DNA of 64,000 nt from Humidesulfovibrio sp. (GTDB lineage Bacteria > Desulfobacterota > Desulfovibrionia > Desulfovibrionales > Desulfovibrionaceae), in the NCBI RefSeq assembly GCF_031082295.1, contig NZ_JAVHLD010000006.1, positions 1 through 64,000 of the forward strand. The letters run 5' to 3'. Position 1 is the first letter of the stretch, and each line of letters starts with the position of its first letter. The notes under the pieces are model-generated. The model had not been told where the DNA came from and made no database searches. It worked only from the letters and a program-made list of their open reading frames with translations. This document shows positions 3,452-18,674 of the stretch, one piece after another. A program made the translations under genes and the position numbers.

Positions 3452-6400
3452 CTAGCCCTTGCCGCGGCCGGGGAAGTCCGGCCAGGACTCGGCGGCGCCG
3501 GATTGGATGAGCCTGAGCGCCTCGGACTCGGGCAGGGCCGGGGCGAAGAGGTAGCCCTGGGCGTAGCGGCAGCCCAAGCTGGAGAGATAATTCAGCTGCT
3601 CGACCGTTTCCACGCCCTCCGCCACCACCTTGAGGCGCAGGCCCGAGCCCAGGGTCACCAGGGTGTTGATGATGGCCTCGCTGCCGCCCTCTTCCCCCGC
3701 CCGGCCGATGCCGGCCACGAAGTCCCTGTCGATCTTGATGGCGTCCACGCTGAAGCGCTGGATATAGTTGAGCGAGGAATAGCCGGTGCCGAAGTCGTCG
3801 ATGCACAGGCCCAGGCCCAGCTCGCGGATCTTGGCCGCCACCTCTGTCGCGCTGCCCACGTTGTCCAGCAGCACGCTCTCGGTGATCTCCAGGGCGATGC
3901 TTTGCGGCTTGACCCCGCAGTTGCGCACCGTCTGCTCCAGATGGCCCACCAGCATGGGGCTGCGGAAATGCTTGGCCGAGATGTTGATGTTTGTGGCGAA
4001 GCCCTGGTGGCCGAAGGGCGAGCGGGCCTCGAGCGCCTTGTCGAACTCGCGGATGGCGCAACAGGCCTGGGCGAAGACCCAGTAGTCCAGCGGGTAGATG
4101 ATGCCCGTTTCCTCGGCCAGGGGGATGAACTCCCCGGGCAGCATCTCGCGCCCGCCCTCGCGCCGCCAGCGCAGCAGCACCTCGAACCCGGCCAGGCGGC
4201 CCTGCTTGATGTCGAGGATGGGCTGGTAGAGCAGGGTCAGCTCGTCCAGCTCGTGGTTCAGGTCGAGCGCCCGGCGCAGGGCGATCTCGGTCTCCATGGT
4301 CTCCAGGGCCTTGGTGTGCATCTTCTTGTTGAAGACCTTGAAGCGGCTCTTGCCCATGGCCTTGGCGTGGTACATGGCGGTGTCCGCGTCGCGCAGGAGC
4401 GCCTCGGGCCTCTCGTAGGCCTCGGTGCGCAGCACGATGCCCAGGCTGCCGGAGGTGACGACCTCGCGCCCGTCCAGGTCCATGGGCTGGGCGATGTCCT
4501 CCAGCACGCGGCGGCAGAAGAGAATGGCGTCGCGGTGGGCGGTGATGTCTTCAAGCAGGATGGCGAACTCGTCGCCGCCGAAGCGGGCCACGGTGTCCGT
4601 GCTGCGCGCGCAGGCCATGAGCGCCTGGGCGACGTGGCGCAGCAGCTGGTCGCCGATGTCGTGGCCAAGGCTGTCGTTGATGACCTTGAAGCGGTCCAGG
4701 TCCATGTACAGGACGGCGAAGCGGAAGTTCGGGCGGCGGCGCGCGCGCTCCATGGCCATGCGCAGGTGGTCCATGAACAGCAGGCGGTTGGGCAGGCCGG
4801 TGAGAGAGTCGTGGAAGGCCTGGTGCATCAGCTTGTTTTCGGCCTGCTTGCGCAGGGTGATGTCGCTGACGAAACCTTCATAGAAAAGGACGCGGCCCGT
4901 GTTGTCCACGACCTTGCGCGCATTCTCGGATATCCACAACACCGAGCCGTCGCGCGTGCGCACCTGGGACTCGAAGTTCTGCACCCGGCCCGACTCCTCC
5001 ATGAGGGCCAGGAACTCCTGGCGCCTGTTGGGCTCCACGTACGGGCTCTTGACCGAGAGCTCGGCGATGAGATCCTCCGGGGTATCGTAGCCGAGGATGT
5101 GGGCCATGGCCGGGTTTGCGGAAAGGTAGCGGAACTCCGGCGTGATCTGGAAGATGCCTTCGGCGGCGTTCTCGAAGATGCCGCGGAACTTTGCCTCGGC
5201 CCGGCGCAGGGCGTCGCCCACCACCTTGCGCTCGGCCACCTCGATCTTCAGCTGGGTGTTGGTGCGCGAGAGGTCGCGGGTGCGCTCGGCCACCATGCGC
5301 TCCAGCAGCACGCGCGACTGCTCGCGCTCCTGCTCGATCTTCTTGGCCACGGAGATGTCTCGCAGGATGCAGACCTGCACCGGGCCGTCGGTGAGCGCCA
5401 CGCGAGAGACGGTGATCTCCGCCGGGAACTGCGAGCCGTCGGGCCTGGTGGCCAGCACCTCGTGCAGCACCGCCGCGGAGCCCATGGATTCCTCCCGCGA
5501 GCGGGTCACCACCTCTCCAGTCTGTGCGCCGAACACCTCCGCACAGTTGCGCCCGGCGATGTCCTGGCCCTCCATGCCGTACATGCGCAACAGCGCCGGG
5601 TTGTGCCGCACGATGACCCCGTCTGCGTCCACCACGAGCAGGCCGTCGGCGATGTTGCCAACGATGGCCGAGAGCGCGCCCAGGGCGTCCTGAAGCTCGC
5701 AGGTCGCCTCGGCCACGCTGCGCTCAAGCTGGGTCACGTGGCCCGAAATCTGTCCGGCCATGGTGCGCATGGCCTCCGCCAGGGAGCCGATCTCGTCGCC
5801 GGAGCGCACGTCGCAGGTGGCGGTGAAGTCGTGGTTGGCCACGCGCTGGGCATAGGCCGCGAGCTGGCGCAACGGGCCGGTGATGCCCCGGATGAAGAAG
5901 AAGGCAACGGCCACGAAGGCCAGAAACACGCCCAGGGTCAGCATCTGCTGGCGGAAGATGGCCTTGCGGATGGCCTTGCGGATGGGCTCTTTGTCGAGCC
6001 CGATGTGCACGCAGCCGCCCTTGCCGCCCAGGATGGGCTGGGCCACGTGGATGACCTCCACGTCCCCGGGCAGGATCAGGGTGCGGGTCTCGTGCCCGGC
6101 GCCGAAGTGGGCCTTGCCCGGAGCCTCCCGCACGATGGCCATGACCTCCTCGGGCACCACCGGGGCGAAGGTGTGCGCCACCACGTCGCCGTGGGGATCC
6201 AGCACAAGGATGTAGGACAGCCCGCCCATCTCCTGGTGCAGGTCGATGGCCGCCTGGATGGCCCCGGCGTTCCTGCTGAGCAGGATCTCCGTGTTGCCGT
6301 CGGCGATGGAGCGGGCCAGGGCCACTGCCCGGCCCTCGTACTCGCGCACCATGGACTCGTTCAGCTCCCGGCCGGACAAAAGCGACGTGGCCAGGGCCAT

Positions 6401-14065: not shown

Positions 14066-14806
14066 ATGACAGATCAGCCAGACGCACCAGCCAACGCGGC
14101 AGAAACCCGACCGGCCATGGACATTCCCGCGCCGGAACCCCCGCGCGAGGAGCCCCGCCGCGTGGAGCGCCTGCCCGGCGTCCACCTGGACGTGAAGGTC
14201 GGCGGCTCTATCGTCGTGCACTTCCCCATGCTCGGCAAAAAGTACGAGGGCAAGGTGGTGGGCTTCGAGCCCTTCTCCTTCCTCATCGTGCTGGCCAGGC
14301 TGCCGCAGGACGTGCTGGCCCAGGCCTCCTCCGGCACCAGCATGGTGGCCCAGCACCACTCGGGCGGCGTGGTCTTCGGCTTCCGCACCGAGCTGCTGAA
14401 GCACATCACCAGCCCCGCCGCGCTCCTGTTCCTGGGCTTCCCGGACAGCGTGGACCGCATCGTGCTGCGCAAGGACGAACGCGTGAGCGTCAACCTGCCC
14501 GGCACGCTGAGCGGCAAGTACGGCGACCAGAAGGTCATGGTGCAGGACCTGACCCCCACGGGCTGCCAGCTCACGGCCAAGATCGACCTCAAGAACCCGC
14601 TGCGCGAGGCCCAGAACGGCGACCGGCTCGTGCTGAACCTGGAGATGGCCTGCCAGTTGCCCATCGTCTCCCCCATCGAGCTGCGCCGCGTGGTGGCCGA
14701 AAAAGGGCTGCTGCAAATGGGCGCGCAGTTCGTGGAGATGTCTCCCGAGACGAGGGAACAGCTGCACAGCTACATCGGCGGCCTGCTGGAGTTCATGGAC
14801 CACTAG
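14066..14806 (+). CDS. YcgR-like PilZ c-di-GMP receptor
   Basis: A 246-residue cytoplasmic protein. A flexible Pro/Glu-rich start (1-35) leads into a YcgR-type N-terminal beta domain (about 36-130) and then a PilZ domain (about 130-240). The c-di-GMP-binding residues are present as RKDER (RxxxR) and DLTPTG (D/N-x-S/T-x-x-G). This family brakes or steers flagellar motors, or acts on other c-di-GMP outputs. A candidate -35/-10 (TTGCCA, 18 bases, TATCCA; 13999-14028) lies upstream, and a strong terminator follows at 14826. Confidence 0.88.
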   Translation: MTDQPDAPANAAETRPAMDIPAPEPPREEPRRVERLPGVHLDVKVGGSIVVHFPMLGKKYEGKVVGFEPFSFLIVLARLPQDVLAQASSGTSMVAQHHSGGVVFGFRTELLKHITSPAALLFLGFPDSVDRIVLRKDERVSVNLPGTLSGKYGDQKVMVQDLTPTGCQLTAKIDLKNPLREAQNGDRLVLNLEMACQLPIVSPIELRRVVAEKGLLQMGAQFVEMSPETREQLHSYIGGLLEFMDH

Positions 14807-14882: not shown

Positions 14883-15407
14883 TCACAGCCCGCGCTTGTG
14901 CAGCCAGCGCAACAGCGCGTAGCCCAGCAGGCAGAACCAGGGAATGAGCACCCAGTGGTGCCGGTCCATGAGCTGGGGCAGCGTCACCTTGCCGTAAACG
15001 CCCCAGGTCAGCACCGAAGTCTTGAGCATGGGATAGGCCTCGGCGAACAGGCCCGCGCCCACCAGCATCCCGGCGATGCCCGCCAGGGCGTCCAGGCGTC
15101 CCTCGCCCAGCGCCCCGCCGGAGGTGCCCGGACAGTATCCCAGAAGCCCCCAGCCCGCGCCGAAGAGCAGCCCGCCAAGCACAGTGCCGCCCAGTATCAG
15201 CGGCTTGATGGACAGCTTGGCCAGCCCCAGGTCCACCAGGATATGCACACCCACCATGCCCACCAGCACTGTGGTCAACATGAACTTGACGATGGTCATG
15301 TCCTTGAGAAGCAGCGCGCCCAGCTGGCGGTCATAGCGGATGACCTCCGAGCGCTGCAGGAGCACGCCGAAAAGCACGCCGGTGACGATTCCGTAGATGA
15401 GGTCCAT
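14883..15407 (-). CDS. YeeE/YedE-family transporter, second half
   Basis: A 174-residue membrane protein with four or five hydrophobic segments, belonging to the YeeE/YedE (DUF395, PF04143) sulfur or selenium transport family. It holds the second family motif GYCPGTSGGALGEGRLDAL, with Cys near residue 93. In two-gene versions each half supplies part of the pore, and the upstream gene (15411-15950) is the other half. The start lies 3 bases after that gene's TAG stop, with GGGAGG inside the upstream coding end, so the two are translationally linked once the UGA in the first is read through. The substrate (thiosulfate or another sulfur/selenium compound) is inferred from the family. Confidence 0.88.
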   Translation of the reverse strand: MDLIYGIVTGVLFGVLLQRSEVIRYDRQLGALLLKDMTIVKFMLTTVLVGMVGVHILVDLGLAKLSIKPLILGGTVLGGLLFGAGWGLLGYCPGTSGGALGEGRLDALAGIAGMLVGAGLFAEAYPMLKTSVLTWGVYGKVTLPQLMDRHHWVLIPWFCLLGYALLRWLHKRGL

Positions 15408-15410
15408 GCG

Positions 15411-15950
15411 CTACCTCCCTTCCGTCTTGCCGACGGCCTTGCCATAAAGCAGCCGGGCCACCACGACCCCGCCGATGAAGAAACACACCAATGCCACATA
15501 CCCGCTCGCAGCCAGCTGAAGCGACCCGCTCAGCCCATGACCGCTGGGTCAGCCATCCGCCAGGCGCGCGCCGAACATGGCCACCACGCCGCCCACGAAG
15601 GCCACGCCGAAGCGCCTGCCGACGCCCGGACCGAAGCGCGCGGCGAAACGGTCCGGCACGGCCTGGACCTTGAAGGTGCCGCTCAAGAGCGACGCCGCGC
15701 ACGAGCCGAGCACGATGCCGACCACGAACATCCACTGCCAGTCGACCTTGGGCGTCTCCTTCATGAAGTAGGGCATGGTCGCCACGCGCTCCGCGGCGAC
15801 GGTCTGCTCCACCATGCCCGCGGCGCGCACGAAGGTTGTCGAGGCGCCGAAATACTTGCCGGCGACCCACACGGACAGCACCAGCAGAAGTCCGGCCAGC
15901 GCCCCCGCGATGTATGGGTTCCAGGGTTTTCCACGTGTGCCTTCGCTCAT
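15411..15950 (-). CDS. Probable selenoprotein: YeeE/YedE transporter, first half (Sec at UGA codon 134)
   Basis: A 179-residue membrane protein when the in-frame TGA at 15549-15551 is read through. The codons around it give GARLADG-(TGA)-PSGHGLSG, where the family has a Cys in this GC(T/P)SGHG motif, so UGA stands exactly where the reactive Cys belongs. After the TGA, 45 more residues follow with a further hydrophobic span (YVALVCFFIGGVVVARLLYG) up to TAG at 15411, just 3 bases from the next gene. A hairpin at 15516-15533 with a GGGUC loop and a bulged U fits a bacterial SECIS. The start MSEGTRGKPW follows AGGAGG. Stopping at the TGA would remove the motif and leave 141 bases of unexplained open frame. 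A plain nonsense mutation is the alternative. Confidence 0.83.
15516..15533 (-). promoter_or_regulatory. Candidate bacterial SECIS hairpin
   Basis: On the minus strand CTGAGC, loop GGGTC, GCTTCAG: a 6-bp stem with one bulged U on the 3' side, extendable by two weaker pairs. The loop begins 22 bases after the UGA, inside the usual 16-37 base window, and contains the GGU expected for SelB recognition. Confidence 0.65.

Positions 15951-16157: not shown

Positions 16158-18674
<2,517 letters not shown>

Follow-up and report, generated by a model that had tools for sequence, protein, structure and literature searches.

A UGA codon predicted to encode selenocysteine in the PmpA-like half of a split YeeE/YedE transporter from Humidesulfovibrio sp.

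In a stretch of 64,000 nucleotides from Humidesulfovibrio sp. (contig NZ_JAVHLD010000006.1, positions 1 to 64,000, hereafter the window), comparison with related genes indicates that an in-frame UGA is very probably decoded as selenocysteine (Sec), and that the gene carrying it, one half of a split YeeE/YedE transporter, encodes a selenoprotein. The strong comparative evidence described below suggests that SelB and tRNA-Sec would decode this UGA under the direction of a hairpin located just downstream (Table 1). The frame of the PmpA-like gene runs from an ATG at 15948-15950, through the TGA at 15549-15551 (codon 134), to a TAG at 15411-15413, and the ATG of the next gene (PmpB-like, 15405-15407) lies three bases beyond. 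The original prediction had placed the TGA at the reactive Cys of the family, within the motif DG-U-PSGHGLSG, followed by 45 codons that end three bases from the next gene. The frame and the alignment, in which this column holds Cys or UGA, bear out the first statement and the coordinates the second. Against the read-through protein the PF04143 profile scored 83.2 bits (curated cut-off 27) over residues 6-162, including part of the protein after the UGA, so the family homology continues past this codon; a search of the whole genome with the same profile matched the same gene, with one TGA inside. A gene caller that took the UGA as a stop would end the protein at residue 133 and miss its last quarter. 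Structure prediction gave too poor a model to use (mean pLDDT 51.7). The same genome contains a further PF04143 match (G000 contig C43, 777-1109, locus L003), lying in a 371-residue open frame without inner stop.

Table 1. Features of the split transporter locus in the window.
Feature	Coordinates	Strand	Basis or remark
PmpA-like half of split YeeE/YedE (PF04143) transporter, 179 residues, Sec at residue 134	15411..15950	-	PF04143 match; alignment with 21 relatives
UGA codon (Sec134), at the Cys293 column of Spirochaeta thermophila TsuA	15549..15551	-	Alignment; UGA or Cys in 53/53 motif-bearing loci
SECIS-like hairpin, stem +15..+34 after the UGA, with a single unpaired base in the 3' arm (15519 or 15520)	15515..15534	-	Folding, conservation, covariation
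Apical loop GGGUC of the hairpin, +22..+26 after the UGA	15523..15527	-	Folding; the computed minimum pairs the outer G and C, leaving GGU
PmpB-like partner half (PF04143 / DUF6691), 174 residues	14883..15407	-	Starts three bases downstream of the PmpA-like gene; Cys codon 15132-15134 aligns with TsuA Cys91

To compare the residue at this position we have scanned 55 loci, namely the window gene, 29 loci of relatives and 25 on named genome contigs, with some genomes counted twice. The SGHG motif was found in 53 of them, and the residue preceding the Pro was Cys in 32 and UGA in 21; the remaining two were a Cys form with a GLAG variant of the motif and a contig ending before it. Once identical proteins were merged, 45 were left, 18 with Sec and 27 with Cys. 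The search among relatives had produced 53 matches in 43 of 59 genomes, of which 23, all weaker, stand outside this residue count. The in-frame UGA falls in a GUxSG motif (GUPSG here) aligned with the Cys of homologs, as described for YeeE/YedE selenoproteins.

A degenerate DNA pattern for G-U-P-x-G-H-G, which would miss forms with another motif, was found at 59 places (including the window) in 54 of 395 genomes of the phylum, while the same pattern written backwards as a control matched seven times. Among the 58 places besides the window, 40 loci in 39 genomes were homologs at E < 1e-30 by a profile of the 45 proteins, and 18 were not (17 without a profile match and one at 14 bits). These data bear on the possibility that the UGA is a true stop, created by a point mutation in a gene now truncated or dying. 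In favor of such an event, the UGA is one base away from the UGC/UGU Cys codons of close relatives and is preceded by a 133-residue frame starting from the ATG at 15950. However, all 40 homologous loci carry a UGA at this very codon and continue with family sequence beyond it, and the codons after the UGA in the window are mostly identical or synonymous to those of the two UGA forms from the genus (35/40 and 34/40). Close relatives were also inspected for an ordinary stop without homology downstream, and what they have instead is UGA or Cys at this codon and conserved sequence beyond. We consider a true stop very improbable.

In a tree of the 45 proteins (four of them on long branches, with unsure placement) seven changes between Sec and Cys are required, four or more of them forced by well-supported branches, compared to about 14 for shuffled labels. 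Sec and Cys have been interchanged more than once, also within the genus of the window. One UGA form (L049) comes from a contig titled Selenomonadales, a Bacillota MAG, and reflects either gene transfer or a misbinned contig.

The hairpin downstream of the UGA was where the original prediction had put it, with the GGGUC loop at +22 (loop +22 to +26, stem about +15 to +34). A bulged U, on the other hand, had been named as something a bacterial SECIS needs, and this part was not sustained. The base left unpaired lies in the 3' arm (+29 or +30, which are equivalent) and is C in 20, U in 11 and G in 6 of the 37 distinct relatives with the bulged form, and 14 further UGA sequences are better fitted by a form with a six-base loop and no bulge. 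Since the base is variable and these 14 sequences fit the bulge-free form, a bulged U is not a conserved requirement here. In the SECIS of E. coli fdhF the bulged U lies in the 5' arm.

Two forms of the hairpin were scored. The first has the pairs +16/33, +17/32, +18/31, +19/29, +20/28 and +21/27, a five-base loop and a single unpaired base in the 3' arm; the second keeps these six 5' bases but pairs them with +28 to +33, giving a six-base loop without bulge. The 61 UGA rows were reduced to 51 distinct sequences (one short row dropped and duplicates merged) and compared with 26 distinct Cys sequences. All six pairs were complete in 45 of the 51 UGA sequences (33 in the first form and 12 in the second) versus none of the 26 Cys sequences; the six incomplete ones kept four or five pairs, and four of these six can pair +18 with +30 instead. 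Random synonymous recoding with the codon usage of the Cys rows gave complete hairpins in a mean of 2.33 of the 51 sequences (maximum 10 in 1000 trials), and sliding the 3' partners lowered the paired fraction from 0.97-0.98 to 0.14-0.42. Within the stem, the first base of a Leu codon and the third base of a Gln codon also covary. In 46 UGA rows (five with another residue in place of the Leu were left out) the combinations were CG 30, TA 13, TG 3 and CA 0, and in the 26 Cys rows CG 16, CA 6, TA 2 and TG 2. For the Gly of the loop, the codon GGU is used in 48 of 51 UGA rows versus one of 26 Cys rows, the window (GGGUC) being among the three exceptions. The conservation and covariation of the hairpin in the UGA forms and its absence from the Cys forms support recoding, and are a further argument against a true stop. 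A tree-aware sign test found three pairs in agreement and one neutral (p 0.25) and was unable to reach significance, because the rows are related and only four supported independent Sec/Cys pairs are available.

Fold energy alone is weak evidence for the hairpin. The 25 hairpin bases by themselves fold at -10.7 kcal/mol, with 5 of 200 shuffles as stable, but longer stretches are unremarkable, both for the fold of 41 bases that includes the UGA (25/200) and for a longer stretch of a relative, L043 (24/200). By hand check, the hairpin falls within the four published bSECIS constraints, with a loop of five bases (three in the computed minimum; 3-9 published), seven to nine pairs (4-16) with one unpaired base, a G in the first two loop positions, a distance of 21-22 bases from the UGA (16-37) and the above energy (MFE <= -7.5). 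It resembles the bSECIS consensus given in the Fig. 2 legend of PMC13188914 in loop size, early loop G, spacing, stem length and energy, and departs from what that legend gives in having a variable unpaired base on the 3' arm and, in the second form found in the family, a six-base loop without bulge. An Rfam search of the hairpin returned no SECIS family up to E 10, although membership in Rfam is not among the published bSECIS constraints. A Cys form from Desulfovibrio sp. A2 (L042, just after position 4379), located in the tree beside a UGA form (L048), preserves five of the six hairpin pairs and the GGGUC loop, perhaps as a relic SECIS left after a change from Sec to Cys.

A way to locate the constraint is to compare different stretches of the locus within a single genus. 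Over the 36 bases after the codon, the identity of the window is 1.00 and 0.97 with the two UGA forms of the genus and 0.72-0.83 with the nine Cys forms. No such separation is seen in the other stretches compared. Over 360 bases upstream of the codon, the window is 0.88 identical both to a UGA form (L006) and to a Cys form (L005), and 0.81 to the other UGA form; at the protein level it is 84-89% identical to three Cys forms of the genus. For the 23 codons after the hairpin, identity is 0.86 with both UGA forms and 0.83-0.84 with the three nearest Cys forms; for pmpB the values are 0.83-0.90 and 0.86-0.88, respectively. Since neither of these last two stretches separates UGA from Cys forms, we rejected recombination of the whole 3' end as the cause of the likeness among UGA forms. 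Judged from these identities, the constraint among the stretches compared sits in that of the hairpin, as a SECIS predicts, unlike what a recombined 3' end would give.

The machinery for selenocysteine was looked for in the genome, and all of it was found: one selA (584 bits, cut-off 268), one selB match above its cut-off, a tRNA-Sec with anticodon UCA and one selD (G000 contig C3, 61675-62604, locus L076). The selD has itself an in-frame UGA, in the motif AAGUAAK, and is likely a second selenoprotein of this genome. The co-occurrence of selA with the UGA form is uninformative, because at E 1e-60 selA is found in 37 of the 40 genomes with the UGA form versus 355 of the 395 genomes of the phylum overall (p 0.78). 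The three genomes off this count are G126 and G329, without selA match, and G209, with a selA fragment; selB is over its cut-off in all three. G126 and G329 are rated 98-99% complete.

Read-through of UGA codons is known in general, but reading by a near-cognate tRNA (e.g. Trp) or leaky termination, without selenium, is very improbable here, considering that the non-UGA forms scanned all have Cys (32/32) and none Trp, that tRNA-Sec, selA, selB and a selD with its own UGA are present in the genome, and that the downstream hairpin fits the published bSECIS constraints. A true stop, a pseudogene and read-through without selenium were all rejected on the recurrence of the UGA, the conserved sequence downstream, the hairpin, the Cys column and the Sec machinery.

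Regarding the protein itself, the PmpA-like gene corresponds to the C-terminal half of TsuA from S. thermophila, with Sec134 on Cys293 (residues counted in the alignment), and the PmpB-like gene matches the N-terminal half, with Cys92 of its CPGT on Cys91. In the solved TsuA (YeeE; PDB 6LEO, 8K1R) these two cysteines lie in a relay, and both are given as indispensable in the TsuA passages of PMC11582611. By the alignment, Sec would replace the "first" relay cysteine (Cys293) and PmpB would supply the second (Cys91). TsuA differs in being a single chain that has YeeD as a partner and Cys22 as a third cysteine of the relay, whereas here the transporter is split and without Cys22. Of 91 loci whose sequence extends far enough, with some genomes counted more than once, 88 have a PmpB motif at the right distance after the PmpA-like gene. 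The Cys22 column holds Leu, Ile, Val or Ala in all 80 distinct PmpB rows, which have Cys91 by construction as they were chosen by its motif, and the TsuA mechanism therefore cannot carry over unchanged. The TsuA models NF052577 and NF041049 remained below their curated cut-offs (47.5 of 400 and 33 of 645 bits for PmpA, 50.9 and 24.7 for PmpB).

Here two short genes lie side by side, the first corresponding to the C-terminal half of YeeE and holding the Cys293 column, the second to the N-terminal half and holding the Cys91 column. This arrangement is that of the half-transporters PmpA and PmpB of Serratia and Hyphomicrobium, for which a heterodimer has been proposed in the part of PMC11582611 that describes them. 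The differences with that description are the Sec in place of Cys293 and the length of the proteins (179 and 174 residues versus about 130). Along these lines, the PmpA-like half may work with its PmpB-like neighbor as a two-subunit transporter of the YeeE family, most likely passing a reduced form of sulfur, for instance thiosulfate or sulfane sulfur, a role in sulfur transport that we regard as fairly probable.

The same pair, with Sec inserted, might instead move a selenium compound, like the YedE selenium transporters. YedE relatives are tied to selenium metabolism in the relevant part of PMC5322559, a YedE-like protein linked to selenium transport is cited in PMC11582611, and the NCBIfam models of selenium YedE do match, weakly. 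Their scores are however far below cut-off (TIGR04112, 27.4 of 200 bits for PmpB; NF033796, 28 and 26 of 350 for the two halves) and the neighbors scanned include no selenium gene, so that selenium transport seems unlikely. These neighbors were ten genes picked by hand in eight relatives (clustering is confounded by shadow frames in this G+C-rich DNA), with matches to PilZ, DnaJ, HTH, response regulator, Na/Pi cotransporter or epimerase, or none, and three in the window; neither sulfur nor selenium genes were seen among them. The part of PMC13293266 dealing with sulfate reducers places a YeeE-like gene together with tusA and dsrEFH in many of them; no such genes were seen among the thirteen neighbors scanned. 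In the window the pair is flanked on the + strand by genes for a PilZ-domain protein and a carbohydrate phosphorylase (14066-14803 and 16158-18671). Two Desulfobulbaceae loci (L043 and L050) likewise have PilZ genes upstream of the pair, which may be chance.

The Sec form of the YeeE/YedE family is already in print. The catalog in PMC13188914, which mentions several transport proteins predicted to contain Sec, includes a YeeE/YedE thiosulfate transporter family selenoprotein (PF04143, motif GUxSG, WP_012471001.1), and a list in PMC9312934 has the family too. The present gene adds a member and is not a new kind of selenoprotein, because the family is already listed with this motif; its likeness to WP_012471001.1, in Pfam family and Sec motif, is by description and not by sequence. 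The words YeeE and YedE are absent from the main text of the two papers that the review cites for the family (PMC2398784, PMC5029168) and also from PMC12013277. In the literature searched, whose coverage leaves out most subscription journals, we found no functional study of the Sec form and no paper on Humidesulfovibrio and selenocysteine.

The literature searched likewise offered no test of the role of selenium in the family. With natural Sec/Cys pairs available within one genus, at a residue reported to be indispensable in a homolog of known structure, what selenium does to transport is directly testable. The original prediction had suggested that a change from Cys to Sec could alter the chemistry of uptake. 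A selenolate at the outer position of the relay would be a stronger nucleophile than a thiol. A more speculative idea, which we hold as doubtful, is a covalent chalcogen relay, with the selenolate attacking an external sulfane sulfur donor to form a Se-S bond and then passing the sulfur on to the PmpB cysteine. If this were true, uptake would be coupled to redox chemistry and not to hydrogen bonding alone, and bacteria would gain or lose this mode of relay by changing one codon and a short hairpin.
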